Part shown: positions 10,796 to 39,968 of the stretch, one piece after another | Position numbering within the stretch: position 1 is the first letter of the stretch | Layout: each line of letters opens with the position of its first letter | Source: Ahniella affigens | Lineage (GTDB): Bacteria > Pseudomonadota > Gammaproteobacteria > Xanthomonadales > Ahniellaceae | Direction of reading: 5' to 3' | DNA length: 64,000 bases | NCBI RefSeq assembly: GCF_003015185.1 | Contig: NZ_CP027860.1 | Coordinates: 744,001-808,000 of the forward strand | Made by a program: the position numbers and the translations under genes | The notes under the pieces: model-generated | Seen by the model: the letters and a program-made list of their open reading frames with translations, nothing else | Database searches by the model: none | What the model was told of the DNA's origin: nothing

Positions 10796-12121
10796 CTAGC
10801 GCCCGCCGGCACGAGCCCGATGCATGGCAAACGCGGCGCGGCATTCCCGCCACCAGTGTTGCATGAACGATCGCACGAGACCGCGCCTTGGTTCCACCGG
10901 TAGATCGGCGGCCTGGCGAAAGATCTGGTGATACGTCCAGCCGACTGCGCCGATGACATTCAGTACCCGCCCCAACAGGAACGGGCTCGTTGGCGACAGC
11001 AGACCACGCGGACGGATGTACTGCTGGCGTTCGGGCGCAGGCAATGCTTCCTGCTGATGCTGCAGAAGTTGCCGCACCGACAAGGGGTCGGTGAGATACG
11101 GTCGGGCGATACCAATCAGATCGCAGGCTTGGTCCGCCAGCGCGCCGTCCATGCCCGCGCGGGTTCGAAAGCCGCCCGTGACCATGAGTGGCATGCGTGC
11201 GATCTTGCGAACGTCTTCGGCGTAGCTCAGGAAATAGGCTTCGCGTTGCCGAGTGCTCGCCCGAACCGAGACTTCGCTGTCGGGCTTGCCCGCAAAACCG
11301 AGCAATTGTGGTTGCTCGTAGGTGCCGCCCGATAGTTCCAGCGCATCGATACCGGCCGCATTCAACAACGCGACGACCTGCAGACAATCGGCTTGCGTGA
11401 AGCCACCCTTGCGGAAATCGTCCGAATTCAGTTTGACCGTCACGGCGAAATCGTTGCCGACACGCGCGCGCACGGCCTCAATGGTTTCCAGCAGACAACG
11501 GGCGCGCGCTTCGATCGTACCGCCGTACGGTGGTTCGCGACGATTGGTCCACGGCGACAGCAGACTGCTGAGCAAGTATCCGTGTGCACTGTGAATCTGC
11601 ACGCCGGTAAAGCCGGCGTCGCGCGCCACGTCGGCCGCAAACGCAAAGCGTTCGGGCAGTTCGGCGATCTCGGCATCGCGCAGCGCCCGAGGTTTGGCGT
11701 AGAGACCGAGCAAGCCAACGGAGACGGGCGAGGGCGCCAGGGGCCGCCCAGTCACGTAGCGGGGGGATTGTCGCCCCGCATGCGACAGTTGCATCCACAC
11801 CTCGCCGCCTTCCGACTTGGCGGCTGAAGCCCATGTCTGCAGCGCTGCCCGTGCTTCCGGGCCAAACGTATGCGCCTGCTGGCGATCGATCACGACATTG
11901 CCCGGGCGCTCAAGCACCTGGTAGTCGATCATCACATTGCCGGTGATCTGCACCGCGGCACCCGCCTTGGCCCAAGTGCGATACAAGCTGGCGTGGCCGG
12001 ACGTGGCCAAATTGCGGGCATCAGCCACGCCTTCGGTCATGGCCGCTTTAACTAATCGATTGGACAGGCGCTGTCCGCACGGCAATACGAACGGATCTTC
12101 AATATGCGGCAAATCAGTCAT
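10796..12121 (-). CDS. NADH:flavin oxidoreductase, Old Yellow Enzyme family
   Basis: The product is 441 aa from ATG 12121. A GTG at 12157 would add 12 residues, and neither start has a strong ribosome-binding site. It is an FMN TIM barrel with family motifs: MQLSHAGRQSP, then GVQIHSAHGYLLSSLLSP with the usual TNRR and YGG, and VKLNSDDF followed by GIDALELSGG. No iron-sulfur cluster domain follows the barrel, unlike 2,4-dienoyl-CoA reductase. The C-terminal ~60 residues after the barrel are hydrophobic and basic, of unclear role. Such enzymes reduce activated alkenes with NAD(P)H, but the substrate is unknown here. It lies 42 bp downstream of the cytochrome operon and is probably co-transcribed with it. 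Confidence 0.85.
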   Translation of the reverse strand: MTDLPHIEDPFVLPCGQRLSNRLVKAAMTEGVADARNLATSGHASLYRTWAKAGAAVQITGNVMIDYQVLERPGNVVIDRQQAHTFGPEARAALQTWASAAKSEGGEVWMQLSHAGRQSPRYVTGRPLAPSPVSVGLLGLYAKPRALRDAEIAELPERFAFAADVARDAGFTGVQIHSAHGYLLSSLLSPWTNRREPPYGGTIEARARCLLETIEAVRARVGNDFAVTVKLNSDDFRKGGFTQADCLQVVALLNAAGIDALELSGGTYEQPQLLGFAGKPDSEVSVRASTRQREAYFLSYAEDVRKIARMPLMVTGGFRTRAGMDGALADQACDLIGIARPYLTDPLSVRQLLQHQQEALPAPERQQYIRPRGLLSPTSPFLLGRVLNVIGAVGWTYHQIFRQAADLPVEPRRGLVRSFMQHWWRECRAAFAMHRARAGGR

Positions 12122-12163: not shown

Positions 12164-13471
12164 TCAGGACGAACAGGCGGGCAGTGACGACGCAAGATGC
12201 TGGAGCGTTGCATCGACCTTGGCGGCGCGCAAGGCTTCATCCGCCGATTCGGTGGGGTCATTCGCCTGATACAGCGCATCCACGTCTGCTTGAACGCTGA
12301 TCAGGTGCTCTGGATCGACCACCAGCGACGCGTTGGGCCCGATCAGCATGCTCGCCAGTGTCATCGTGTAGGCCTCGGCTGACGGTCTCGGCAGAGGCTG
12401 CTGACGTTTTGCTTCGTCGAGCAATGCACGGAGAAGACAAGCCGGCTCGGTGTTTGCCACGAGCTTGCCGGCGCTGACGGCGGTGCGGGTTTCGGTGATC
12501 AGTCGCTGTCCTTCAGCCACCAATGCGGTCGTGTCGCCGCGATTGGCCATGGCCTGATTGAGATCGCGCTCATAAGTGTGCCAGCGCGACGCGAGCGCCG
12601 GATCCGCCGGCTTCAAGGCGGCGCCGATCAGGATCATGCTGGCGCTGTCCAGGCTGACACTGCCGGGTGGCAGGCCAAGACTTTGGCGAACCAGGCTCGA
12701 CTTGGCATGCAGGCTGCGGTGACAGCTGTGGCAGTCGAACAACGAGAGCTCGGGAAACAGGCCTCGATGGGCGCTGGGATCAGCGAGTCGCGTCAGCAGC
12801 GATTCGGTGTTGGCGAGTTGCCCGGCAAACCACATCGTTGATCGATCGGGAATCGGTTTGCGTCGGCGATAGTCGCGATCTTCAATCGCATGATACGGCC
12901 AGGCGCCGCTCCAGCTATGCATTTCAAATCGGAGACGCGGATGGCCGGCGGCATACATGATGTGCGAGAGCCGCCGCGTTGCATCGCCGACATGGCAACT
13001 GGCACAGAGCGTTGCCCGGGCTTCGGCATTCGTGGTGGGGTACATGCCGGCGGCCAGATTGCCCGCATGGGTAGAGCGTGTGCCGACATGCGTCGCCAGG
13101 AACGCCTTGCCCGGGCCATGGCACGTTTCGCAGCCGATCGCGGTGGCATCGCCCGATTCGGATTTCTCGGCGATCTGACGGCCTTCATGGCACGTCAGGC
13201 AGGCGGGTTCATGGCTGGGCTCGGCCAGGCCGAGTTGATTCGTGATGGCGCGGGCGGCGTCAGACTGCAAGGTCTCTAAGCTGCGGGCATGCGGATCGCG
13301 GGTTTGCCACAGCCAGAACTCGCGCATGGTCACCGTGGCATTGCGCCAAGGCTTCGGCGAATCGTGGCACGTGCTGGAACCGCAGGTGGCAGTGCCCAGA
13401 AAAGGCGCATGCTGGTCTTGCGGCACGGATGTTTGGGACAAGCTGAGGGTCAGAAGCAGGGCAGGGAGCAT
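12164..13471 (-). CDS. Multihaem cytochrome c (four CxxCH plus one CX4CH), c554-like
   Basis: The product is 435 aa with an N-terminal hydrophobic segment consistent with a signal peptide. Haem attachment motifs are CX4CH at residues 30-36 (CGSSTCH) and CxxCH at 91-95, 114-118, 156-160 and 247-251. The region HIMYAAGHPRLRFEMHSW supplies additional His that could be distal ligands. This pattern resembles cytochrome c554-like proteins. The C-terminal ~180 residues have no haem motif and look helical. The start lies 7 bp after the stop of the outer-membrane barrel gene, in the same operon as the five-haem cytochrome at 15140-16915. It is predicted periplasmic and may carry electrons to or from the barrel complex. 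The CX4CH form is rarer than CxxCH but known in cytochrome c3-type proteins. Confidence 0.85.
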   Translation of the reverse strand: MLPALLLTLSLSQTSVPQDQHAPFLGTATCGSSTCHDSPKPWRNATVTMREFWLWQTRDPHARSLETLQSDAARAITNQLGLAEPSHEPACLTCHEGRQIAEKSESGDATAIGCETCHGPGKAFLATHVGTRSTHAGNLAAGMYPTTNAEARATLCASCHVGDATRRLSHIMYAAGHPRLRFEMHSWSGAWPYHAIEDRDYRRRKPIPDRSTMWFAGQLANTESLLTRLADPSAHRGLFPELSLFDCHSCHRSLHAKSSLVRQSLGLPPGSVSLDSASMILIGAALKPADPALASRWHTYERDLNQAMANRGDTTALVAEGQRLITETRTAVSAGKLVANTEPACLLRALLDEAKRQQPLPRPSAEAYTMTLASMLIGPNASLVVDPEHLISVQADVDALYQANDPTESADEALRAAKVDATLQHLASSLPACSS

Positions 13472-13478
13472 GGGCGCC

Positions 13479-15143
13479 TCAGAATTTCAGTCGCAGTTCA
13501 ATGCGGATGCCGTCGAAGTCTTCGGCGTTCCGGCGCCAGCCTTTGATGGCGTCCGCGCGCAAAATCCATTGCTTGCTCAAGGGTCGCTGATAGCGCACCG
13601 ATAACGCCGTCTGGCGGCGGCGATCCGCCCCAGGTAGCGCATCATCGTCGTCGCGATGCTGATCGGTGAACGCCAACTCGCCCACAAGCTGCTGATCGAG
13701 CTTGAACAGATACTGGAGCCCGACTGCGGCGCCGGCGGTGTTCCGCGCGCGGTCGTCCAGCAATGGAAATCCGGTCAGTCCGTCGGTCTCAAAACCGATG
13801 CCGATATTCTTCAGCGGGCCGCCAGCGCCGGGATCGCGCGCCAGCGATTGCACGGTGCCGTGCGCGTAGAAGAAGTTCGCGTAAGGCACGTACGTGTAGG
13901 GCTTGCTCGTGATCCACGAGTTTTCGGCGACAACCATGTAGCCGTCGGCAGTTTTGGGTCGACCGGCGCCCGGGTCCTGGCCGACGTTTGCCATAAACCG
14001 GATGCTATTGGACAACTTGCCGGCGTAGCGCTTCGTATAGGCCGCCGTCAGGTTGTGATAGCTGTAATCACCATCGCGCTTTTCCTTGTCGTGCACATAG
14101 CCGTAGCCGGTTTCGATATAGGCGCCGTGACGTTCGAAAAAGCCCGTCACGCCGGCCACCGCGCCTTGATGCTGTGCCAGGCGACCGTTGCCTTGGATCA
14201 ACGCTGGCGAGTTGACGTCGTCGAAGCCGGCAAACACCGTGATGTCGTAGTTCGAAATATCGAATTTGGCGTTGTTCCGCGCCGTGATCGATGCCGCGCC
14301 GCCAACGATCGCGTCGTCCATCCAGAAGCCATTCTGAAAGAACAATGGCATCAATCCGACGGCAACTGGCAGATCCCATTTGGTGTAGCGATCCTGCCAG
14401 CCGGAGACCAGCGCGCCCAGGTCGCCCTCGAAGAAGGCGGAACGTGCGATGCTGTTGGCCAGCAATTCAGAGTTCTGATTGCGGATCTGCCGTTGATTGC
14501 CGCCAAACTCGTGTCGGGTAAAACGCCCGTCGCGATCAAACGGACGCAGCAACACATGGAAGCGTTCGGTCGCCGTGAAGCGATAGTCGAGATCGAGATT
14601 TAGTCGGGTCGCGATCTGATCGGTGCTGATCGCGCCATTGTCATTGCTCGCAACCGCCGTGCGCCAATCGCCGTACATCAGAAACTGATGCCGCGTTGGA
14701 TTCTTTTCACCGAGGCCATCGCCGTCCTGACCCAATGGGCCGGCCTGATACATCTTGTAGCCCCATTCCAGCCACGGGCGTGGCCCAATGACTGCTTTCT
14801 TGCCGCCATAGATGGCCAGTTGTGCCTCAGCGTCGTAGGGCTTGTCGACGTAGCTCGGGTCGGGACCGAACAGGGTTCGGTCATACGGCGCCACGGTTGC
14901 CGAGTCGGACATCTTCGGCACCGGCCGTTCGTGCTGATGACCTTGGGGTGGCCGCTCCGGAATCTCTGCCGGATGGGCGGGTGGCCGCAACAAGTGGGCG
15001 TCGTTGCTCAGGTCAGGAACGTCGGGCAGCGCAGTAGCGGCTTCGTCGGTCGGGTCGACCTCACTGGCGCACACCAAACCCGCGTTGAGCAGCAGGGCGC
15101 TGGCGATGAACAGAGACAGCGGCGAGCGGGACAGGCGGATCAT
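13479..15143 (-). CDS. Outer-membrane beta-barrel (porin-like) protein of the cytochrome operon
   Basis: The product is 554 aa. ATG 15143 overlaps the stop of the upstream cytochrome gene (ATGA), indicating translational coupling. A signal peptide (MIRLSRSPLSLFIASALLLN, then cleavage near CAS) is followed by a proline- and His-containing linker and ~450 residues of alternating polar/aromatic strands (for example YIETGYGYVHD, NSIRFMANVG). It ends in IRIELRLKF with a terminal Phe, the usual signal for outer-membrane barrel insertion. I do not recognise a named family. Its position between two multihaem cytochrome genes suggests the porin part of a porin-cytochrome conduit, as MtrB is for MtrCAB; this is inference from context. 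No N-terminal CxxC like that of MtrB was seen. Confidence 0.75.
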   Translation of the reverse strand: MIRLSRSPLSLFIASALLLNAGLVCASEVDPTDEAATALPDVPDLSNDAHLLRPPAHPAEIPERPPQGHQHERPVPKMSDSATVAPYDRTLFGPDPSYVDKPYDAEAQLAIYGGKKAVIGPRPWLEWGYKMYQAGPLGQDGDGLGEKNPTRHQFLMYGDWRTAVASNDNGAISTDQIATRLNLDLDYRFTATERFHVLLRPFDRDGRFTRHEFGGNQRQIRNQNSELLANSIARSAFFEGDLGALVSGWQDRYTKWDLPVAVGLMPLFFQNGFWMDDAIVGGAASITARNNAKFDISNYDITVFAGFDDVNSPALIQGNGRLAQHQGAVAGVTGFFERHGAYIETGYGYVHDKEKRDGDYSYHNLTAAYTKRYAGKLSNSIRFMANVGQDPGAGRPKTADGYMVVAENSWITSKPYTYVPYANFFYAHGTVQSLARDPGAGGPLKNIGIGFETDGLTGFPLLDDRARNTAGAAVGLQYLFKLDQQLVGELAFTDQHRDDDDALPGADRRRQTALSVRYQRPLSKQWILRADAIKGWRRNAEDFDGIRIELRLKF

Positions 15144-16915
15144 GGTTGCACCGTAAAGGTCGCGCTGGCGGGGTGCAGATCGACCATCCATTCGTTGATC
15201 GACTGCTCCATGTCGGTCGTGGCGCCGACAAACTTCATGAAATAAATCGGCTCCGCACGTGAGCGCATCCGCGACTGCAATCGGTACTCGCCCGGTACTT
15301 TGAGCGCTTCGGCCGGAATGCGGTACCGCGCCGCGCGTTCGGCCAATGGCGGCAGGCTACGGCCTTCCATGCGAATGGTAGGCGGGTGGTTCAGCACGGT
15401 CGTAGGAACGCCCGGCGGGCGAATGTGCGGTAATTGATCGCCATCGAAGTTAATCGGCAGGTACATCTCACGATCGGTGCCTTTCAGATTCGTGGTGAGA
15501 AATTTGGTCTGCAGATTGAACAGTTGTTTGTCGAAAACGATTTTGCCGTCGTGAACGTCGTTGCTGTGGATGTCGGCGACATCACCGGCCGAGTCGACAT
15601 AGCCCGATTCCCAAACGCGTTCGCCATTCGGGTTGATCAGCACCACGTTGAACCAGAGCTCGGGCTGCGCGCCAAGCGAGCCGGATGGCAGGTTGTGGCC
15701 TTCGTCGACGTTGCGAACCATGTAGTGCAAGTCCAACTCCTGATTGGTCTTCAGGGGGCTGTCGAAGAATGGGCCGTCAATACGCATCGCGTTTTCCATG
15801 ACTTCGACGCGCGATTGCCGCTTGTCTTCCAGCAGTCGAAGATTCAACGAAATCACGTACGCCGCATCGATGCGGTCCTGCGCGTTCTGCCAGGGCGCCG
15901 GAAAATCGACGGTACGGCCGGACTTCGCGAGTTCCGCTTCCCAGTCCGGATCACCCCAGTTGGAGCGATAATCGAACTTCAACCAGTCCTGGATCGACCA
16001 GCGCAGGGCGCGCGGATTGAACGGGAACAGCCCGGGGTGCGCGATCGGATAGCCCGGTCCGAAGAACAGGTGATTCGAGTGCTTTTGCTTCGGGTCGCCA
16101 ACAATCTGGCCGTTGACGACCGCGATGGGCCATTGCTCGTAGCCTTTGGCTTCGCCTGGTACGGCACCCATATGACAGTCCTGACAAGGAATGTCCTTCT
16201 TTGCGGCCGGGGCAGCGCGGTATTGCTCCCAGACCACTTCCAGCTTGATGCCAGGATGCACGGCAACCTGATGGCAGGACACACAGAACTGGCTCTGCGA
16301 GATTTGTTCGAACTCGATGACGGGCCCGTGGATCGGTGTCTGATCAGGATTGGTGCCACTGAGATCAATTCCAAACGCTTCAGCGTTGGCGAGTACGTTG
16401 CTGTATTCCTTGCCGCGCCCAGCGTTATACATCGGGTCGCTGAGTGGCCCAGGCGTGACGGTGCGTTCGCCATTCACTTTGCCAAACTGGGTCTTGACGC
16501 GGTGGCAGGTCACACACGTGATGCCTTCGCGAGCGATTGGTGACCGTTCCCAAAGGGCCTGTTCGCGGGGCTCGCCTTTCTGCGTGCCAATCTGCTGGTG
16601 GCAGCGCACGCAGAACGTCCCGATCGTGCCCGACGCGAAGTTGTTGATCGCTTGCTCAAACTTGTGAAACATCGGCGAGATCGACGCATACGCGTGATTC
16701 GACGTTGCCCATTCCCAGAACACACGTGGGTGGCAACTCGCGCACTCGTTGGCGCTCGGGAAGTCGGTTTTCGCGAAGGCGGCCGCGTGTGGATCGGCCG
16801 CGCCAAGCGGCGCCACGCCCGATGTGGGGGTGGCCGCAGTCGCGGCATCCTCGGCGCGCGCGCTGGCCGAAGCCAGCCCGATGCCTAGTAAAAATGCAGG
16901 CAAGAACACACGCAT
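15140..16915 (-). CDS. Five-haem c-type cytochrome with long haem-free C-terminal domain
   Basis: The product is 591 aa. ATG 16915 is preceded by AGGGAGA about 9 nt upstream and followed by a signal peptide (MRVFLPAFLLGIGLASASARA). CxxCH motifs lie at residues 58-62, 102-106, 134-138, 211-215 and 244-248. After residue ~250 there are ~340 residues without haem motifs, which look beta-rich and may be a binding or docking domain. It is first in an operon with the barrel protein and the second cytochrome. Extra His residues, such as those in SNHAYASISPMFHKFE, may be distal ligands. It could be the extracellular terminal cytochrome or a periplasmic partner; the sequence does not decide. No lipobox is seen. 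Confidence 0.85.
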   Translation of the reverse strand: MRVFLPAFLLGIGLASASARAEDAATAATPTSGVAPLGAADPHAAAFAKTDFPSANECASCHPRVFWEWATSNHAYASISPMFHKFEQAINNFASGTIGTFCVRCHQQIGTQKGEPREQALWERSPIAREGITCVTCHRVKTQFGKVNGERTVTPGPLSDPMYNAGRGKEYSNVLANAEAFGIDLSGTNPDQTPIHGPVIEFEQISQSQFCVSCHQVAVHPGIKLEVVWEQYRAAPAAKKDIPCQDCHMGAVPGEAKGYEQWPIAVVNGQIVGDPKQKHSNHLFFGPGYPIAHPGLFPFNPRALRWSIQDWLKFDYRSNWGDPDWEAELAKSGRTVDFPAPWQNAQDRIDAAYVISLNLRLLEDKRQSRVEVMENAMRIDGPFFDSPLKTNQELDLHYMVRNVDEGHNLPSGSLGAQPELWFNVVLINPNGERVWESGYVDSAGDVADIHSNDVHDGKIVFDKQLFNLQTKFLTTNLKGTDREMYLPINFDGDQLPHIRPPGVPTTVLNHPPTIRMEGRSLPPLAERAARYRIPAEALKVPGEYRLQSRMRSRAEPIYFMKFVGATTDMEQSINEWMVDLHPASATFTVQP

Positions 16916-20667: not shown

Positions 20668-22038
20668 TCAGCGACCCATGCCCATCGGCCCGCCCGGGCC
20701 CATCATGCCCTTCATTTGGCGCATCAGGCCCTTGATGCCGCCGCCGGAGAGCTTCGACATCATCTTTTCCATCTGCTGATACTGCTTCAGCAGGCGATTC
20801 ACGTCAGATGGCTGCAGGCCGGCGCCCTTCGCGACACGGAGCTTGCGGGAGCCGTTCAGGAGGTCGGGGTGGCGGCGTTCTTTCGGCGTCATCGAGTTGA
20901 TGATCGCGATCATCCGGTCCACGTCCTTGTTGTTGACCTTGTCTTTCAGGTTCTGGGGGATCTGGGCCATGCCCGGGAGTTTGTCCATCAGGCCGGTCAG
21001 ACCACCCATGTTCTGCATCTGGGCAAGTTGGTCGCGCATGTCATTCAGATCGAACTTTTTGCCCTTCATGACCTTTTCGGCCAGTTTCTGGGCTTTCTCG
21101 GCGTCGATCTTGCGCTCAACGTCCTCGACCAGGCTCAGCACGTCGCCCATGTCCAAGATACGCGACGCAGCGCGATCTGGATGAAACGGTTCCAGTGCAT
21201 CGGGTTTTTCACCCGCACCGACAAACTTGATCGGCCGCCCCGTGATGTAACGCACGGACAGTGCCGCGCCGCCGCGGGCGTCGCCGTCCGTCTTGGTCAA
21301 CACGACGCCGGTCAGTGGTAGGGCCTGAGAGAACGCTTTGGCCGTGTTGGCGGCGTCCTGACCCGTCATCGCGTCGACGACAAACAGCGTTTCGATTGGC
21401 TTCAGCGCGGCGTGGATCGACGCGACTTCTTCCATCAAGGCGGCATCGATCGCCAGGCGGCCGGCGGTATCGACGATCAGCACATCGGCGTAGTTCTTTT
21501 TGGCGGCGTCCAGCGCACGCTCAGCAATGCTGACCGGGGCTTGGCCCGGCTCACTCGGGTGAAACAGGGCGCCAACCTGGCCGGCCAAAGTTTGCAGCTG
21601 ATCAATCGCGGCCGGACGGTACACGTCGCAACTCACCACCATGACCTTCTTTTTCTTCCGCTCGTGCAGGTACTTGGCGAGCTTCGCGACCGTCGTCGTC
21701 TTACCAGCACCCTGCAGGCCGGCCATCAGAATGACGGCGGGCGGCTGCGTGGCCAGATTCAGGTCGGCGTTCGCCGTACCCATGACCGAGGCGAGTTCTT
21801 GCTGCACCACCTTGACCAAGGTCTGGCCAGGGCTGAGGCTCCGGAGCACATCCTGGCCCACGGCCCGCACCTTGATGCGCTCGATCAGTGCTTGTACGAC
21901 CGGCAGGGCCACGTCGGCTTCAAGCAGCGCGACGCGCACTTCACGCAACGATTCGCGGATGTTTTCCTCGGTCAGACGCGCCCGACCCCGCAGCTTATTG
22001 ATCGTACTGGACAGGCGTTGGCTGAGATTTTCGAACAT
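20668..22038 (-). CDS. ffh: Signal recognition particle protein Ffh
   Basis: The product is 456 aa. It binds 4.5S RNA and signal sequences and delivers ribosomes to FtsY. The N domain is followed by the G domain with GLQGAGKTTTVAKLA, DTAGRLAID, TKTDGDARGGAAL and GAGEKPDALEPF. The methionine-rich M domain ends in MGPGGPMGMGR. It is divergent from ccsA and upstream of the rpsP operon on the same strand, a conserved gammaproteobacterial order. Confidence 0.98.
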   Translation of the reverse strand: MFENLSQRLSSTINKLRGRARLTEENIRESLREVRVALLEADVALPVVQALIERIKVRAVGQDVLRSLSPGQTLVKVVQQELASVMGTANADLNLATQPPAVILMAGLQGAGKTTTVAKLAKYLHERKKKKVMVVSCDVYRPAAIDQLQTLAGQVGALFHPSEPGQAPVSIAERALDAAKKNYADVLIVDTAGRLAIDAALMEEVASIHAALKPIETLFVVDAMTGQDAANTAKAFSQALPLTGVVLTKTDGDARGGAALSVRYITGRPIKFVGAGEKPDALEPFHPDRAASRILDMGDVLSLVEDVERKIDAEKAQKLAEKVMKGKKFDLNDMRDQLAQMQNMGGLTGLMDKLPGMAQIPQNLKDKVNNKDVDRMIAIINSMTPKERRHPDLLNGSRKLRVAKGAGLQPSDVNRLLKQYQQMEKMMSKLSGGGIKGLMRQMKGMMGPGGPMGMGR

Positions 22039-22383: not shown

Positions 22384-23187
22384 ATGTGGATCTGGTTTGC
22401 TCTCCTGGCCTTGTTGGCCTACTTGTTTGCTGCCTGGCGCGCCTTTGATCGGGCGGGTGGCGCGGTGCGCGTGGGTCCGGTCCCGTTGTGGCCGGGGCTG
22501 GTTGCAGCCACGCTGCACGCGTTGGCCTTGGCATTGAGTTGGCGTGCCGACGGCGGTGTGGCGTTGAGCTTCCCGTTGGCGGTCTCGGCCATCGGGCTGA
22601 CGCTGGTCGATGTGTTCTTGTTGATCTGCTGGACACGCCCGTTATTGCAACTGGGCACGGCGATCTACCCCATTGCTGCCCTCAGTGTGTTGGTCCAGGT
22701 GGGGCTCGGTCTGGTCGAGGGCGGTACACCCAAGCCCTTGACGGATTGGCGCATTCTGCTGCACGCGGGGCTGGCGTTGCTGGCGTTTTCGACCTTGCTG
22801 ATGGGTGCGGTGGCGGCGGTCATGTTGAGTCTGCAGGAGCGCGCCTTGAAAGCCCGGCGTTTTGCCGCCTGGATGGAGCGCGTACCGCCGCTGACCCAGG
22901 TCGAGGCGCTGGTGTTTCACCTGATCACCGCAGGATTCGTGCTTCTGACGCTGGCTTTACTCACGGGCGCCCTGTTTGTCGAAAACCTGCTCGCCCAGCA
23001 TCTGGCGCACAAGACGGTTCTCTCGGTTGTCGCCTGGCTGGTCTATGGCGGCCTGCTGCTGGCCCGCTGGCGTCTGGGCATGCGCGGGCAACGCGCGGCG
23101 CGCTGGGTCTGGGTGGCGACGGTGTTCCTGAGTCTGGCGTTCCTGGGTAGCAAGTTCGTGCTGGAAGTGTTGCTGCAGCGTGGGTGA
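22384..23187 (+). CDS. CcsA/YpjD-family cytochrome c assembly-like membrane protein
   Basis: The product is 267 aa with about eight hydrophobic segments. It matches the YpjD/CcsA-like inner-membrane family that is regularly found beside ffh in gammaproteobacteria. The segment LTDWRILLHAGLALLAFSTL carries the conserved His of the family; FHLITAGFVLLTLALLTGAL and HKTVLSVVAWLVYGGLLL supply further His at helix ends, as in haem-handling CcsA proteins. The tryptophan-rich WWD signature of true CcsA/CcmF is not obvious, so haem handling is inferred. Its physiological role in these bacteria is not established. Confidence 0.85.
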   Translation: MWIWFALLALLAYLFAAWRAFDRAGGAVRVGPVPLWPGLVAATLHALALALSWRADGGVALSFPLAVSAIGLTLVDVFLLICWTRPLLQLGTAIYPIAALSVLVQVGLGLVEGGTPKPLTDWRILLHAGLALLAFSTLLMGAVAAVMLSLQERALKARRFAAWMERVPPLTQVEALVFHLITAGFVLLTLALLTGALFVENLLAQHLAHKTVLSVVAWLVYGGLLLARWRLGMRGQRAARWVWVATVFLSLAFLGSKFVLEVLLQRG

Positions 23188-37331: not shown

Positions 37332-37343
37332 GCCTGCTTGCGC

Positions 37344-39968
37344 ATGGATGCCGACCGCTGGAAGCAACTCCGCAAGCTGCTCGATCAGGCGTTGGACCTG
37401 GAATCGGAGCAGCGGGCGCAGTTTGCTAACGCGGTCGCCGATGAGTCGTTGCGCGCCGATTTGCAGCGCATGCTGGCGCGGCATGATCACACCACCCCAC
37501 TTGATCGACCGGCGGCGGTACTTGCCGCTGAGGTTATTGTCGAGCGCGCGCCGAGAGATTGGGATCGCGAACAGATCGGTCGGCGTGTCGGGGCGTTTGT
37601 CCTCGACGATCTGATCGGCTCAGGCGGGATGGGGACGGTGTATCGCGCGCATCGTGTTGATGGCCGCTTGAACCAGATGGTCGCCATCAAATTGGTGCTG
37701 TCGGCGCACCCGGGCCTGCGCGACCGATTCAGGAAGGAGCAGGAAATCGTTGCGGGGCTCAGGCATCCGAACATCGCGCAGTTGATCGACGCAGGCGAAT
37801 CCGAAGACGGGATCCCCTATTTGGCGATGGAATATGTCGAAGGGGTCAGCATCACCGAGTTCTGTCGGCAGCGGCTACCGGACGCCGGGTCGCGTATCCG
37901 CCTGATGTTGCGCGTGGCGTCGGCGTTGTCGCACGCGCATCGCAACTTGGTCATTCATCGCGACATTAAACCTTCAAACATACTGGTCACCGAAGATGGA
38001 CTGCCGATACTGCTGGACTTTGGCATTGCCAAACTCGTCGGCGAAGATCGCTTCCGACCCGTTACGGCGCAGCGCTTGGGGCCCATGACGCCGGCCTATG
38101 CCGCGCCGGAGCAATTTCGCGGCGGGATGATTTCGGTCGCTACCGACGTGTATCAGTTCGGGGCGTTGCTGTATCGGGTGTTGACTGGGCAGCTGCCGTA
38201 TGCGGCCGACCCACATGACGCGATCAATTGGGGCCGGGCCGTGCTGGAATCCGACCCGATCACCCTCAGCCGCGCGATCACGCAGGCGCGTTTGGAGGAG
38301 AACACCGATGCGTCACGCGAAGCAGTCAAGACGCTGAGCCGCGACATCAATCGCGATCTTGATGCCATTCTGCGAACCGCGCTGTCGAAAGAGCCGAGCC
38401 GTCGCTATCCCTCCATCGACGCGATGGTCGCCGACCTCGAAGCGTTTCTTGATGGCCGGCCAGTGGTGGCGCGCCATGGCGATCGTTGGTATCACCTGAC
38501 GCGCTTCTTGCGCCGGCACTGGCTGTCGACCGCCATCGGTAGTCTTTCCGCGCTCGGCTTGATCACCTTGACGGCGTTGTCCTGGCAGTTTGCGGTCAAG
38601 GCCCAACGCGAGGCCGAACGCGCTACGCTGGCCGTCGACTTTCTGAATCAGGTGATGGATGCGATCGATCCGATCGATGGACTTGGTCACCGTAGCAGCG
38701 CTGAAGACGTGCTGAAACACGCCTTGTCCAGGTTTCAGGGGGAGATGGCTGATCATCCCGACTTGCGGGCGCCGCTCGTGATCAAGTTGGCGATCACGTT
38801 TGCCAATATTGGTCAGCCGGATGAAGCGTACCCACTGTTCCAATCGGCCCTCGATGAGTTCCTGAAGACCGAGGCCGACCCGCTGCAAAAAGCCGAGGCG
38901 CTGGAACGTGGCGCGTTCTCGGCGTATCGGAGTGGCCACGGCGAGCAGGCCAAACTCTGGACCGACGAGGCGGAGCTTCTGGTCAAGGGAGACTCGGCCA
39001 AGGCCTATTGGATTCGCGATGGCATTGCGTTCAACCGTTGGATTGTCGTTCGGGACAGTGGCGACAATGCAGAGGGGCTCGCGATGGCCGATGTGGCATT
39101 GCAAGCGGCGCGCGATGCCCCCGAAGCGGTGCGTGACCGGATCGTTCAGCGCGCGCTGCAGCGCACGGGTGTTTCGGCAGCGACGTCTGGCAATTTGATC
39201 CGCGCAGAAGCGGATCTTCGTGAGAGCCTTGGCTTGGCGCGCAGACTGTACGGTGAGGATCGCTACATGACATTGCGCGCCCGGAGCGCACTCGCCTGGT
39301 TCATGACCATCAAGGGTGAGCCGGCACGGGCACTCGTGGAGTTCAATACCGTGTGCCCGCGCCTGAAGGAATTGCTTGGCCCAATGGCGTTTGATTACGG
39401 GTCGTGTGTGTACAACACCGGTAATGCGCTGATGGCCACCAAGCAAAATCAAAAAGCCATCGATGCCTATCGCGAGGTGGCCAGTATCTACGCCGGGAAC
39501 ACCAGCAACGCTGCCGTGCAGGTGGGTTGGGCCTTGCAGAACGTTGCACTGCTGCAGCATGCGGATGGCCATTACGAAGCAGCCCGTACGACCTGGAATG
39601 AAGTCGAGAAATCATGGTCGCAACAATTGCCGAGTGGTGCGCCAGTGCTGACCGAGTATCGGTTCAATCGCGCCAAGACCGAGCTGGCGCTGCATGATTG
39701 GGACGCCGCGGACCGGTTGTTGACACGAATGTTGCTGGATGAGCCGTATTTGATCGGGCACCCGACCGAGAATGCCTATGCGCTCTATATGGTGGGCCAG
39801 ATCGCCGAACAGAAGGACGACCGCATCCGGGCCGAACTCGCCTATGAGGACGCGCTGGCAGTGATTGCCAAAGATCCAGCGACACTGGAGGCAGCCTGGT
39901 TGCCGGCCGATCTAGCTGACCTGCGGGCGCGACGTCAGCAACTGCAACAGCCGGAGTCTGGGCGCTGA
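37344..39968 (+). CDS. Transmembrane Ser/Thr protein kinase with TPR-like C-terminal region
   Basis: The product is 874 aa from ATG 37344; TTG 37338 is possible. Residues ~1-80 are a helical N-terminal region. The kinase domain (~83-360) is complete: IGSGGMGTVY, Lys116 in MVAIKLV, HRDIKPSN with Asp207, DFGIA at 225-229, and APEQF. One membrane segment follows (WLSTAIGSLSALGLITLTAL, ~residue 400). The remaining ~450 residues look like TPR helices and are predicted periplasmic. It is paired with the sigma gene 12 bp upstream, suggesting phosphorylation-controlled transcription. The signal sensed is unknown. Confidence 0.92.
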   Translation: MDADRWKQLRKLLDQALDLESEQRAQFANAVADESLRADLQRMLARHDHTTPLDRPAAVLAAEVIVERAPRDWDREQIGRRVGAFVLDDLIGSGGMGTVYRAHRVDGRLNQMVAIKLVLSAHPGLRDRFRKEQEIVAGLRHPNIAQLIDAGESEDGIPYLAMEYVEGVSITEFCRQRLPDAGSRIRLMLRVASALSHAHRNLVIHRDIKPSNILVTEDGLPILLDFGIAKLVGEDRFRPVTAQRLGPMTPAYAAPEQFRGGMISVATDVYQFGALLYRVLTGQLPYAADPHDAINWGRAVLESDPITLSRAITQARLEENTDASREAVKTLSRDINRDLDAILRTALSKEPSRRYPSIDAMVADLEAFLDGRPVVARHGDRWYHLTRFLRRHWLSTAIGSLSALGLITLTALSWQFAVKAQREAERATLAVDFLNQVMDAIDPIDGLGHRSSAEDVLKHALSRFQGEMADHPDLRAPLVIKLAITFANIGQPDEAYPLFQSALDEFLKTEADPLQKAEALERGAFSAYRSGHGEQAKLWTDEAELLVKGDSAKAYWIRDGIAFNRWIVVRDSGDNAEGLAMADVALQAARDAPEAVRDRIVQRALQRTGVSAATSGNLIRAEADLRESLGLARRLYGEDRYMTLRARSALAWFMTIKGEPARALVEFNTVCPRLKELLGPMAFDYGSCVYNTGNALMATKQNQKAIDAYREVASIYAGNTSNAAVQVGWALQNVALLQHADGHYEAARTTWNEVEKSWSQQLPSGAPVLTEYRFNRAKTELALHDWDAADRLLTRMLLDEPYLIGHPTENAYALYMVGQIAEQKDDRIRAELAYEDALAVIAKDPATLEAAWLPADLADLRARRQQLQQPESGR

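Follow-up and report, generated by a model that had tools for sequence, protein, structure and literature searches.

A cytochrome-barrel-cytochrome gene triplet of Ahniella affigens as the putative outer-membrane end of a third branch of PCC4-like systems

Introduction

Among the porin-cytochrome conduits (PCC) described so far, the closest to the system treated here is PCC4, which He et al. (2017; PMC5566968) defined by a porin, 4-, 5-, and 10-haem cytochromes, and a conserved inner-membrane protein (IMP) that carries SGXXG and two WX3HX13H motifs (this and the other papers cited by PMC number were consulted as extracts). In that description, subgroup I occurs in Hyphomicrobium, subgroup II has a PF13247 gene, and the IMP is likened to the membrane domain of ferric reductases and NOX. 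In the literature searched, PCC4 appears as a hypothesis in one paper and in one later mention. Here, we analyzed a stretch of 64,000 nucleotides from Ahniella affigens (NZ_CP027860.1, positions 744,001 to 808,000 of the forward strand; the window), in which three reverse-strand genes encode a cytochrome (CytA), an outer-membrane β-barrel, and a second cytochrome (CytB). A reading made from the letters alone (the sequence-only reading) had taken this triplet for a previously undescribed PCC type. That claim fails, as the relatives of CytA and the barrel correspond to the PCC4 of the PMC5566968 extracts; the conduit idea stays plausible, and what was undescribed narrows to a third PCC4 branch. 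On gene content and sequence relationship, the window belongs to this branch, here called type III, with CytB, a fusion protein of FAD, cyclic nucleotide monophosphate (cNMP), and 4Fe-4S domains (FADox), and a decahaem cytochrome with a forkhead-associated (FHA) domain (FHA10).

Geobacter sulfurreducens ExtHIJKL consists of a barrel and a periplasmic pentahaem, with no outer-membrane c-type cytochrome (PMC6148476), and ExtKL is encoded beside a Geobacter outer-membrane protein. PMC11976967 groups ExtKL with cable-bacterium pentahaem cytochromes, likens them to structure 5ze8, and relates them to the nanowire protein AvECN. In the MtrAB pair, the 26-strand MtrB opens to the periplasm with a width near 30 Å, and MtrA measures about 80 × 30 × 35 Å (PMC7198977).

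Results

CytA and the barrel form a conserved pair in several phyla

As the gene spacing indicates, CytA, the barrel, and CytB are one tight same-strand unit (Table 1). CytA and the barrel gene overlap by 4 bases (ATGA in the window sequence), and 7 bases lie between the barrel stop and the CytB start; these distances, the coordinates, and the sizes agree with what the sequence-only reading had given.

Table 1. Genes of the triplet and of the related loci in the same genome. Positions are those of the window unless preceded by C1 (contig) or L165 (fetched locus).
Feature	Position	Strand	Description
CytA	15140..16915	(-)	Pentahaem cytochrome, 591 aa; ATG 16915, TGA ending 15140
Outer-membrane β-barrel	13479..15143	(-)	554 aa, C-terminal Phe; ATG 15143
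CytB	12164..13471	(-)	Cytochrome with four CXXCH and one CX4CH, 435 aa; ATG 13471
CytB paralogue	C1:965,673-966,977
FADox-IMP-FHA10	C1:3,683,228-3,688,239		Inner-membrane module, three consecutive genes
T2	C1:2,452,331-2,460,522 (L165 8331-16522)		Second putative outlet, own genome, without module; 680-aa lipoprotein-like, 619-aa aromatic-ending, and 1425-aa decahaem proteins

To describe the relatives of the triplet, we used 80 loci, which are the best 80 of at least 539 confirmed relatives from a scan of named genomes and lean toward close kin. They span Gamma-, Alpha-, and Betaproteobacteria, Planctomycetota, Verrucomicrobiota, and a few oddly labelled bins. The barrel gene adjoins CytA in 79 of the 80 (after CytA in 77, before it in 2), and in the sole exception, L115, only 477 bases of contig are present past CytA. 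This pairing rejects chance neighbours and bears out the conserved synteny to which the sequence-only reading had looked. With synteny profiles built from the first few loci, the IMP gene was found in the fetched flank of 53 of the 80 loci, and a decahaem gene (FHA10 or dec) was likewise found in 53 of the 80. The distribution of the pair is patchy, suggesting horizontal transfer: near-full-length CytA is present in 6 of 369 genomes of the class, host included (54 if partial matches to the pentahaem region are counted), CytA in 3 of 398 genomes of the phylum, again including the host (E up to 1e-60), and the barrel gene, among 61 genomes comprising the host and its nearest kin, in the host and G018 only.

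Sorted by gene content, the 80 loci comprise 35 of type III, 23 of type II, 10 of type I, 1 mixed, and 11 with the pair and little else, several of these 11 being on short contigs. Type III was marked by CytB, FADox, or FHA10, type II by a cNMP/4Fe-4S protein or FNR, and type I by its likeness to Hyphomicrobium. Of the 35 type III loci, 34 have CytB next to the pair, 22 show FADox, 21 IMP, and 20 FHA10, counts that are lowered by the many loci ending at contig ends and are partly circular because CytB, FADox, and FHA10 define the type; the full order CytA-barrel-CytB-CytB-FADox-IMP-FHA10 is seen in four loci. A gene of the FNR type (FAD/2Fe-2S) gave no match in the 35 type III loci, many of which end at contig ends. 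This places the branch beside PCC4 subgroups I and II as a member of neither, where the pairing of FNR with a tetrahaem as a criterion is our reading of the PMC5566968 extracts and of the type I and II loci.

On a CytA tree made by a quick method, the window groups with type III. Type III requires 3 changes on this tree compared with a mean of 27.7 after shuffling (0 of 500 shuffles as low), and the set of 38 rows that holds 36 type III and 2 pair-only sequences has a support of 93, below the 95 at which the program awards a star. Type I is one starred clade (support 96), while type II is not a single clade (9 changes). Three rows labelled Mesoflavibacter, Asaia, and Verrucomicrobia (L075, CP051228; L059; L061) group with the type III rows, which could reflect transfer, mislabelling, or misbinning.

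Types I and II fit PCC4 in haem numbers, taxa, motifs, and gene order and are matched by the published description, with Hyphomicrobium facile (L116) as the stand-in for subgroup I; the type I loci of Hyphomicrobium and its kin (L116, L119, L120, L124, L125, L127-L130, and L132) hold 4-, 5-, and 10-haem genes. For type III, no description was found in the literature searched, which covers few subscription papers, and the extracts of PMC9226611, PMC13322032, PMC11475568, and PMC7399161 hold nothing on it.

Conserved histidines in CytA and CytB fit bis-His haems

The CXXCH motifs of CytA lie at residues 58, 102, 134, 211, and 244. All five motif histidines are invariant in an alignment of 80 CytA sequences (A4; the window and 79 of the 80 loci, omitting L084, which is identical to L083), and so are the non-motif histidines 74, 196, 282, and 293 of the haem part, while histidine 84 is 99% conserved. 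CytA matches PF13435, PF14522, and PF14537 over the Pfam cut-offs. In the predicted model (predicted local distance difference test (pLDDT) 78, predicted template modeling score (pTM) 0.81), the C-terminal domain is an immunoglobulin-like β domain, and residues 49-587 superimpose on Thermochromatium tepidum cytochrome c552 (5ze8) with a VIA Z of 18.1 and a root-mean-square deviation (rmsd) of 4.0 over 354 aligned residues; the match after it in the VIA re-ranking scores only Z 9.5. The pentahaem part also matches 5ze8 by sequence (E 2.3e-9). CytA has, in its model, the pentahaem and immunoglobulin-like domains in the 5ze8 arrangement that characterizes the PHC fold group. Foldseek did not place 5ze8 among the best 50 matches listed, and its three matches under E 0.001 were rejected as unrelated proteins with low TM-scores. 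In two genomes, CytA has an extra N-terminal stretch with one CXXCH and the barrel as the next gene (L036 294-2450 and L037 9376-11484).

CytB has CXXCH motifs at residues 91, 114, 156, and 247 and a CX4CH at residue 30. Counting the latter as a haem motif is reasonable because it is kept in 37 of 41 CytB frames and because five non-motif histidines, 61, 128, 170, 177, and 194, are invariant in the 41 aligned sequences, one per haem. Of the four frames that do not have it, two (L086 and L088) start right at the edge of their contig, and a third (L074) represents one half of a frame that is split. The alignment (A5) comprises the window, L052, and 39 of 40 loci, again omitting L084, all drawn from frames that are free of unknown residues and score above 150. 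CytB therefore probably carries five haems, as judged from residue conservation. It matches PF13435 over the cut-off, and its N-terminal half is related to cytochrome c554. There are as many conserved non-motif histidines as haems in CytB and enough of them in CytA, which fits bis-His haems and a role in electron carriage. Neither protein reached a curated NCBIfam cut-off; the weak matches include ExtKL for CytA and ExtN/ExtO for CytB.

The sequence-only reading had two exported five-haem cytochromes, arranged as 5+5 haems on either side of the barrel. Five CXXCH motifs stand for CytA; CytB has five only if its CX4CH is counted. By eye, the N-terminal export signals are plausible in CytA and the barrel and are short and weak in CytB as annotated. 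A simple lipobox pattern was absent from all three proteins and was present in 3 of 80 CytA relatives and 1 of 40 CytB relatives. No lipid-anchored surface partner is therefore indicated, CytA and CytB may both be periplasmic, and the 5+5 arrangement is doubtful.

The barrel is predicted to be an 18-strand channel

A C-terminal phenylalanine, reported by the sequence-only reading for the window barrel, is present there and in 73 of the 76 relative frames scoring above 300. The AlphaFold2 model of the barrel has a mean pLDDT of 84.5 and a pTM of 0.77, with residues 1-71 of low confidence, and a hand count on its DSSP string gives 18 predicted transmembrane strands. In the VIA ranking, Occ/OprD channels score best (OpdL, Z 27.3, rmsd 2.6 over 320 residues), and AlgE reaches a Z of about 24. 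The barrel had no match in Pfam or NCBIfam, MtrB_PioB giving nothing up to E 1, and its sequence matched nothing relevant among solved structures. MtrB is not in the 50 best structural matches listed, which taken alone excludes nothing. The alignment of the barrels (A3) has 75 rows, the window and 74 of the 79 barrels from the loci, after exclusion of one sequence that contains unknown residues, of three shorter than 380 aa, and of L131.

For 18 strands, the textbook barrel formula gives a backbone radius near 17 Å. A barrel narrower than MtrB makes it unlikely that CytA is threaded in the manner of MtrA, and on this model there is probably not enough room inside the 18 strands to sheath CytA. 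Only a small portion of CytA would then enter the barrel, or else a small redox molecule would pass. The sequence-only reading had named a barrel unable to hold a cytochrome as evidence against itself, and the 18 strands and the substrate-channel matches go part of the way there: with them, an MtrA-in-MtrB arrangement of CytA and barrel is unlikely. Weighing against the argument from width, 18 transmembrane domains are likewise predicted for ExtB, which belongs to a putative Geobacter conduit (PMC6148476).

The inner-membrane module lies elsewhere in the genome

The triplet is not isolated, as the genes of an inner-membrane module, FADox, IMP, and FHA10, are found at another position of the same genome (Table 1). 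FADox is present in a single full-length copy, 62% identical to that of L033 over residues 6-801 of 802, and combines a flavoprotein part resembling pyridine-nucleotide oxidoreductases with two cNMP-binding domains and four [4Fe-4S] cysteine motifs; it matches PF13247 with 44.2 bits (cut-off 26.2) and lies directly upstream of IMP. IMP, a b-type membrane protein, has two WX3HX13H motifs and SGXXG in this genome, as do, respectively, 55 and 51 of 58 IMPs. FHA10, directly after IMP, has an FHA match at residues 29-91, one hydrophobic helix at 142-160 that is predicted to lie in the membrane, and ten CXXCH motifs from 197 to 538. Such proteins have been seen before: in PMC10734462, 27 of 87 Gallionellaceae iron oxidizers are tabulated as having a forkhead-associated protein with ten haem motifs. 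With the CytB paralogue at 0.97 Mb, the system is split over three loci in this genome (triplet, 3.68 Mb module, paralogue), and several relatives carry the triplet and inner-module genes in one cluster. In G087 and G232, the module stands with CytB, and other contigs carry the barrel and a CytA that is extended at its N terminus by a CXXCH stretch.

Kinase-like Ser/Thr genes were seen near the FHA-decahaem module at L051 18214-19740 (Pfam-confirmed), L154 1-2514, and L161 10091-11491 (the latter two by motif only), and the window has an 876-aa open reading frame with a Ser/Thr kinase motif at 37338-39968 (+). The FHA domain might read phosphorylation by such nearby kinases; kinase genes by motif occur in 3 of the fetched loci of at least 4 kb, too few for a claim.

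The same module occurs beside a second type of outer-membrane cluster

FHA10 is present in 16 of the 369 class genomes, mostly near whole length, with G314 having it without the FHA part. Five of the 6 CytA genomes have FHA10 compared with 11 of 363 others (Fisher p 4.6e-7), a test in which two sets of 369 were taken as the same genomes, the genomes are not independent, and the FHA10 of G214 is part of a different cluster. A trio of the T2 type follows the module in 8 of 14 newly fetched neighbourhoods (L151, L152, L155-L159, and L162); it comprises a 599-743-aa protein, a 589-737-aa possible barrel (by its end only), and a 1233-1299-aa decahaem. The first protein is often lipoprotein-like by eye, and one that was examined has an HbpS-like domain. 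Part of such a trio was seen in L160, L161, and L163, and the frames of L150 were unclear. The host has a trio of this kind, T2, whose barrel-like protein is unrelated to the window barrel (hhalign probability 0.5%). Because the inner module lies elsewhere beside a T2-type cluster and the host has both outlets, one hub may serve two outlets. The 11 genomes with FHA10 and no full-length CytA, together with T2 in the host, weaken the idea that the module is dedicated to the triplet.

Neighboring genes

On the same strand as CytB, an old yellow enzyme family flavin oxidoreductase (PF00724) is encoded at 10796-12121 (-) and, if ATG 12121 is used, starts 42 bases past the CytB stop and could be co-transcribed; it is absent from the gene families common to at least 4 relatives of the triplet locus. 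No additional conserved neighbour family occurred in more than 9 of the 80 loci, and a ferredoxin-reductase-like gene is present in 9 type I loci. Molybdenum hydroxylase genes (xanthine dehydrogenase, CO dehydrogenase, or aldehyde dehydrogenase type) were seen beside CytA-barrel in up to 5 loci (L063, L064, L065, L101, and L105); they reached no NCBIfam cut-off and are a possible electron source. The cytochrome c assembly family PF01578 has three matches in the genome, one at 22612-23172 (+) of the window (100.9 bits), near an open reading frame at 20668-22038 that we take to be a signal recognition particle protein, and two at C1:1.95 Mb. Genes that by eye resemble those of cytochrome c maturation lie beside the cluster or module at L035 2178-6444, L151 14748-19161, and L152 15070-19549. 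A profile search of the genome for PF22678 (NrfB-like) gave nothing.

Discussion

We consider it fairly probable that the triplet forms the outer-membrane terminus of a PCC4-like chain of type III that transfers electrons across the envelope, and that this chain exports electrons. A donor at the level of NAD(P)H or ferredoxin would reduce the flavin and Fe-S clusters of FADox, and electrons would cross the inner membrane through the two b haems of IMP to the decahaem FHA10. From there, they would pass to the bis-His pentahaem CytB and on to CytA, positioned where the barrel opens to the periplasm, leaving from CytA to an extracellular acceptor. Outward flow is favoured because the chain has a flavo/Fe-S protein of the cytoplasm on its donor side and because IMP is akin to the membrane part of ferric reductases and NOX. 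In favour of the chain, we also counted the pairing of CytA with the barrel, the gene content and order of the type III loci, the FADox-IMP-FHA10 genes and the IMP motifs of the host, the co-occurrence of CytA and FHA10 in class genomes, the conserved histidines, the whole-fold match of CytA to 5ze8 with the grouping of ExtKL, and the three PF01578 matches.

Several observations weigh against this chain. The barrel is predicted as an 18-strand channel of the Occ/OprD/AlgE type. More than 2.9 Mb of the contig separate the triplet from the inner module, and among the upstream regions of the four own loci, sites resembling those of CRP and FNR did not stand out from shuffles: the best was an FNR-like site with 2 mismatches before the T2 cluster, equaled in 13% of shuffles, and one 8-mer is common to the upstream regions of three of the four. 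Eleven genomes have FHA10 and no full-length CytA, the FHA10 of G214 accompanies a T2-type cluster about 18 kb from a CytA cluster that has its own decahaem, and the one inner module of the host may mainly serve T2. The direction of flow and the donor were deduced from domains only, and no experiment on any member was found in the literature consulted.

In a different reading, one that we regard as unlikely and still worth serious attention, the barrel would be a substrate channel admitting a small soluble oxidant or reductant (an oxyanion, an organic acid, or a shuttle), CytA and CytB would exchange electrons with it in the periplasm, and the system would be a periplasmic respiration with a dedicated channel. 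The best matches of the barrel model to Occ/OprD (OpdL) and AlgE agree with such a channel, as does the lipobox, absent in the window cytochromes and rare in relatives; ExtHIJKL, too, combines a barrel with a periplasmic pentahaem and includes no c-type cytochrome of the outer membrane, and strains that lose extI are impaired in reducing selenite and tellurite (PMC6148476). Likeness of fold, however, tells little about function, and the histidines suffice for bis-His ligation of all haems, leaving no obvious catalytic site. The 18 predicted transmembrane domains of ExtB (PMC6148476) likewise speak against it, and extABCD is described as a putative porin-cytochrome conduit needed for growth with electrodes (PMC9226611).

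In a speculative picture, which as a whole we think rather unlikely, the barrel would be an Occ/OprD-like channel and no cytochrome sheath, and its coupling to a bis-His pentahaem would bring electrons and a small molecule together at the membrane. Such a system would be fed by a plug-in, NAD(P)H-linked inner-membrane hub that senses cNMP and phosphoproteins and is shared, within one cell, by two unrelated outlets, the triplet and the large-decahaem cluster.

The type III locus L058 comes from a Ferrovibrio, a genus with Fe(II)-oxidizing members, and electrons might instead run inward, from an extracellular donor such as Fe(II) or Mn(II) to the quinone pool through the b-type protein. This is how He et al. 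modelled PCC4, as donor oxidation, having met it in Hyphomicrobium of a pyrite-oxidizing enrichment, in Zetaproteobacteria, and in water-filter genomes (PMC5566968). A FADox with four [4Fe-4S] motifs beside the b-type protein would nevertheless be superfluous if electrons only entered the quinone pool, and we hold inward flow to be improbable. We find it very improbable that the barrel is an exit for CytA, which would then polymerize into a cytochrome filament outside the cell: the 5ze8-type fold over the whole of CytA, the relation that PMC11976967 draws between pentahaem plus immunoglobulin-like folds and the archaeal nanowire AvECN, and the alginate exporter AlgE among the barrel matches would suit it, but a folded two-domain protein of 591 aa greatly exceeds what a barrel of 18 strands could let through, the published link to AvECN was deduced for other members of the fold group, and polymer contacts of CytA are hypothetical.

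These results show a conserved PCC4 core in several phyla and add a third branch with a different cytoplasmic side, whose inner-membrane module is found in company with either of two kinds of outer-membrane cluster. Should the predicted 18 strands be correct, the MtrAB picture is not simply transferable, and the crossing of the outer membrane becomes the main question. Isolates with the cluster include Solimonas terrae KIS83-12 (type III, L068) and Hyphomicrobium facile DSM 1565 (type I, L116).

Compared with known systems, the triplet shares with MtrCAB, PioAB, and MtoAB only the general idea of a cytochrome and a barrel; the barrel there has 26 strands instead of the 18 predicted here, and the cytochrome 10 haems instead of the five of CytA. 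MtrB_PioB matched nothing in the genome at E 0.001, and as 0 of 14 control genomes passed the cut-off, the sensitivity of that search is not shown; the best score in the genome for the DmsE/MtrA-type decahaem profile, 24.8 of the 192.2 bits required, falls at CytA (controls over the cut-off, 0 of 14). Membership in MtrAB/PioAB was rejected on these two profiles and the predicted strands, in keeping with the sequence-only reading, which had found none of the three proteins recognizable as MtrA, MtrB, or MtrC.

ExtHIJKL is likewise an outer-membrane barrel with a pentahaem and no c-type cytochrome in the outer membrane, and CytA has the 5ze8 fold that PMC11976967 groups with ExtKL. The differences are that CytA scores 20.2 of 250 bits on the ExtKL equivalog profile, that the triplet is without a rhodanese gene, and that ExtI has 21 transmembrane domains rather than 18. 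The large-decahaem PCC (group 1 of PMC13264449) are linked through the inner module, which adjoins seemingly such clusters in 8 of the 14 neighbourhoods; we infer from protein sizes and gene types that the T2-type clusters are group 1. They differ from the triplet in their often lipoprotein-like first protein, an unrelated barrel-like protein, and a decahaem of 1233-1425 aa.

The likeness to PCC4 is the most extensive. A barrel stands beside a 5-haem cytochrome in the window and in 79 of 80 loci, and the genome has its own IMP with SGXXG and two WX3HX13H motifs, although 2.9 Mb from the triplet. Outside the window, the ten-haem FHA10 follows IMP directly, and PF13247, as in subgroup II, lies just upstream of IMP, here inside the FADox fusion. 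In the place of the four-haem cytochrome, the window has CytB with 4 CXXCH and a conserved CX4CH. Type III differs from PCC4 in having a FAD-cNMP-4Fe-4S fusion instead of separate FNR and Fe-S genes and in a decahaem that carries an FHA domain, and the window genome differs in that its system is split over three loci.

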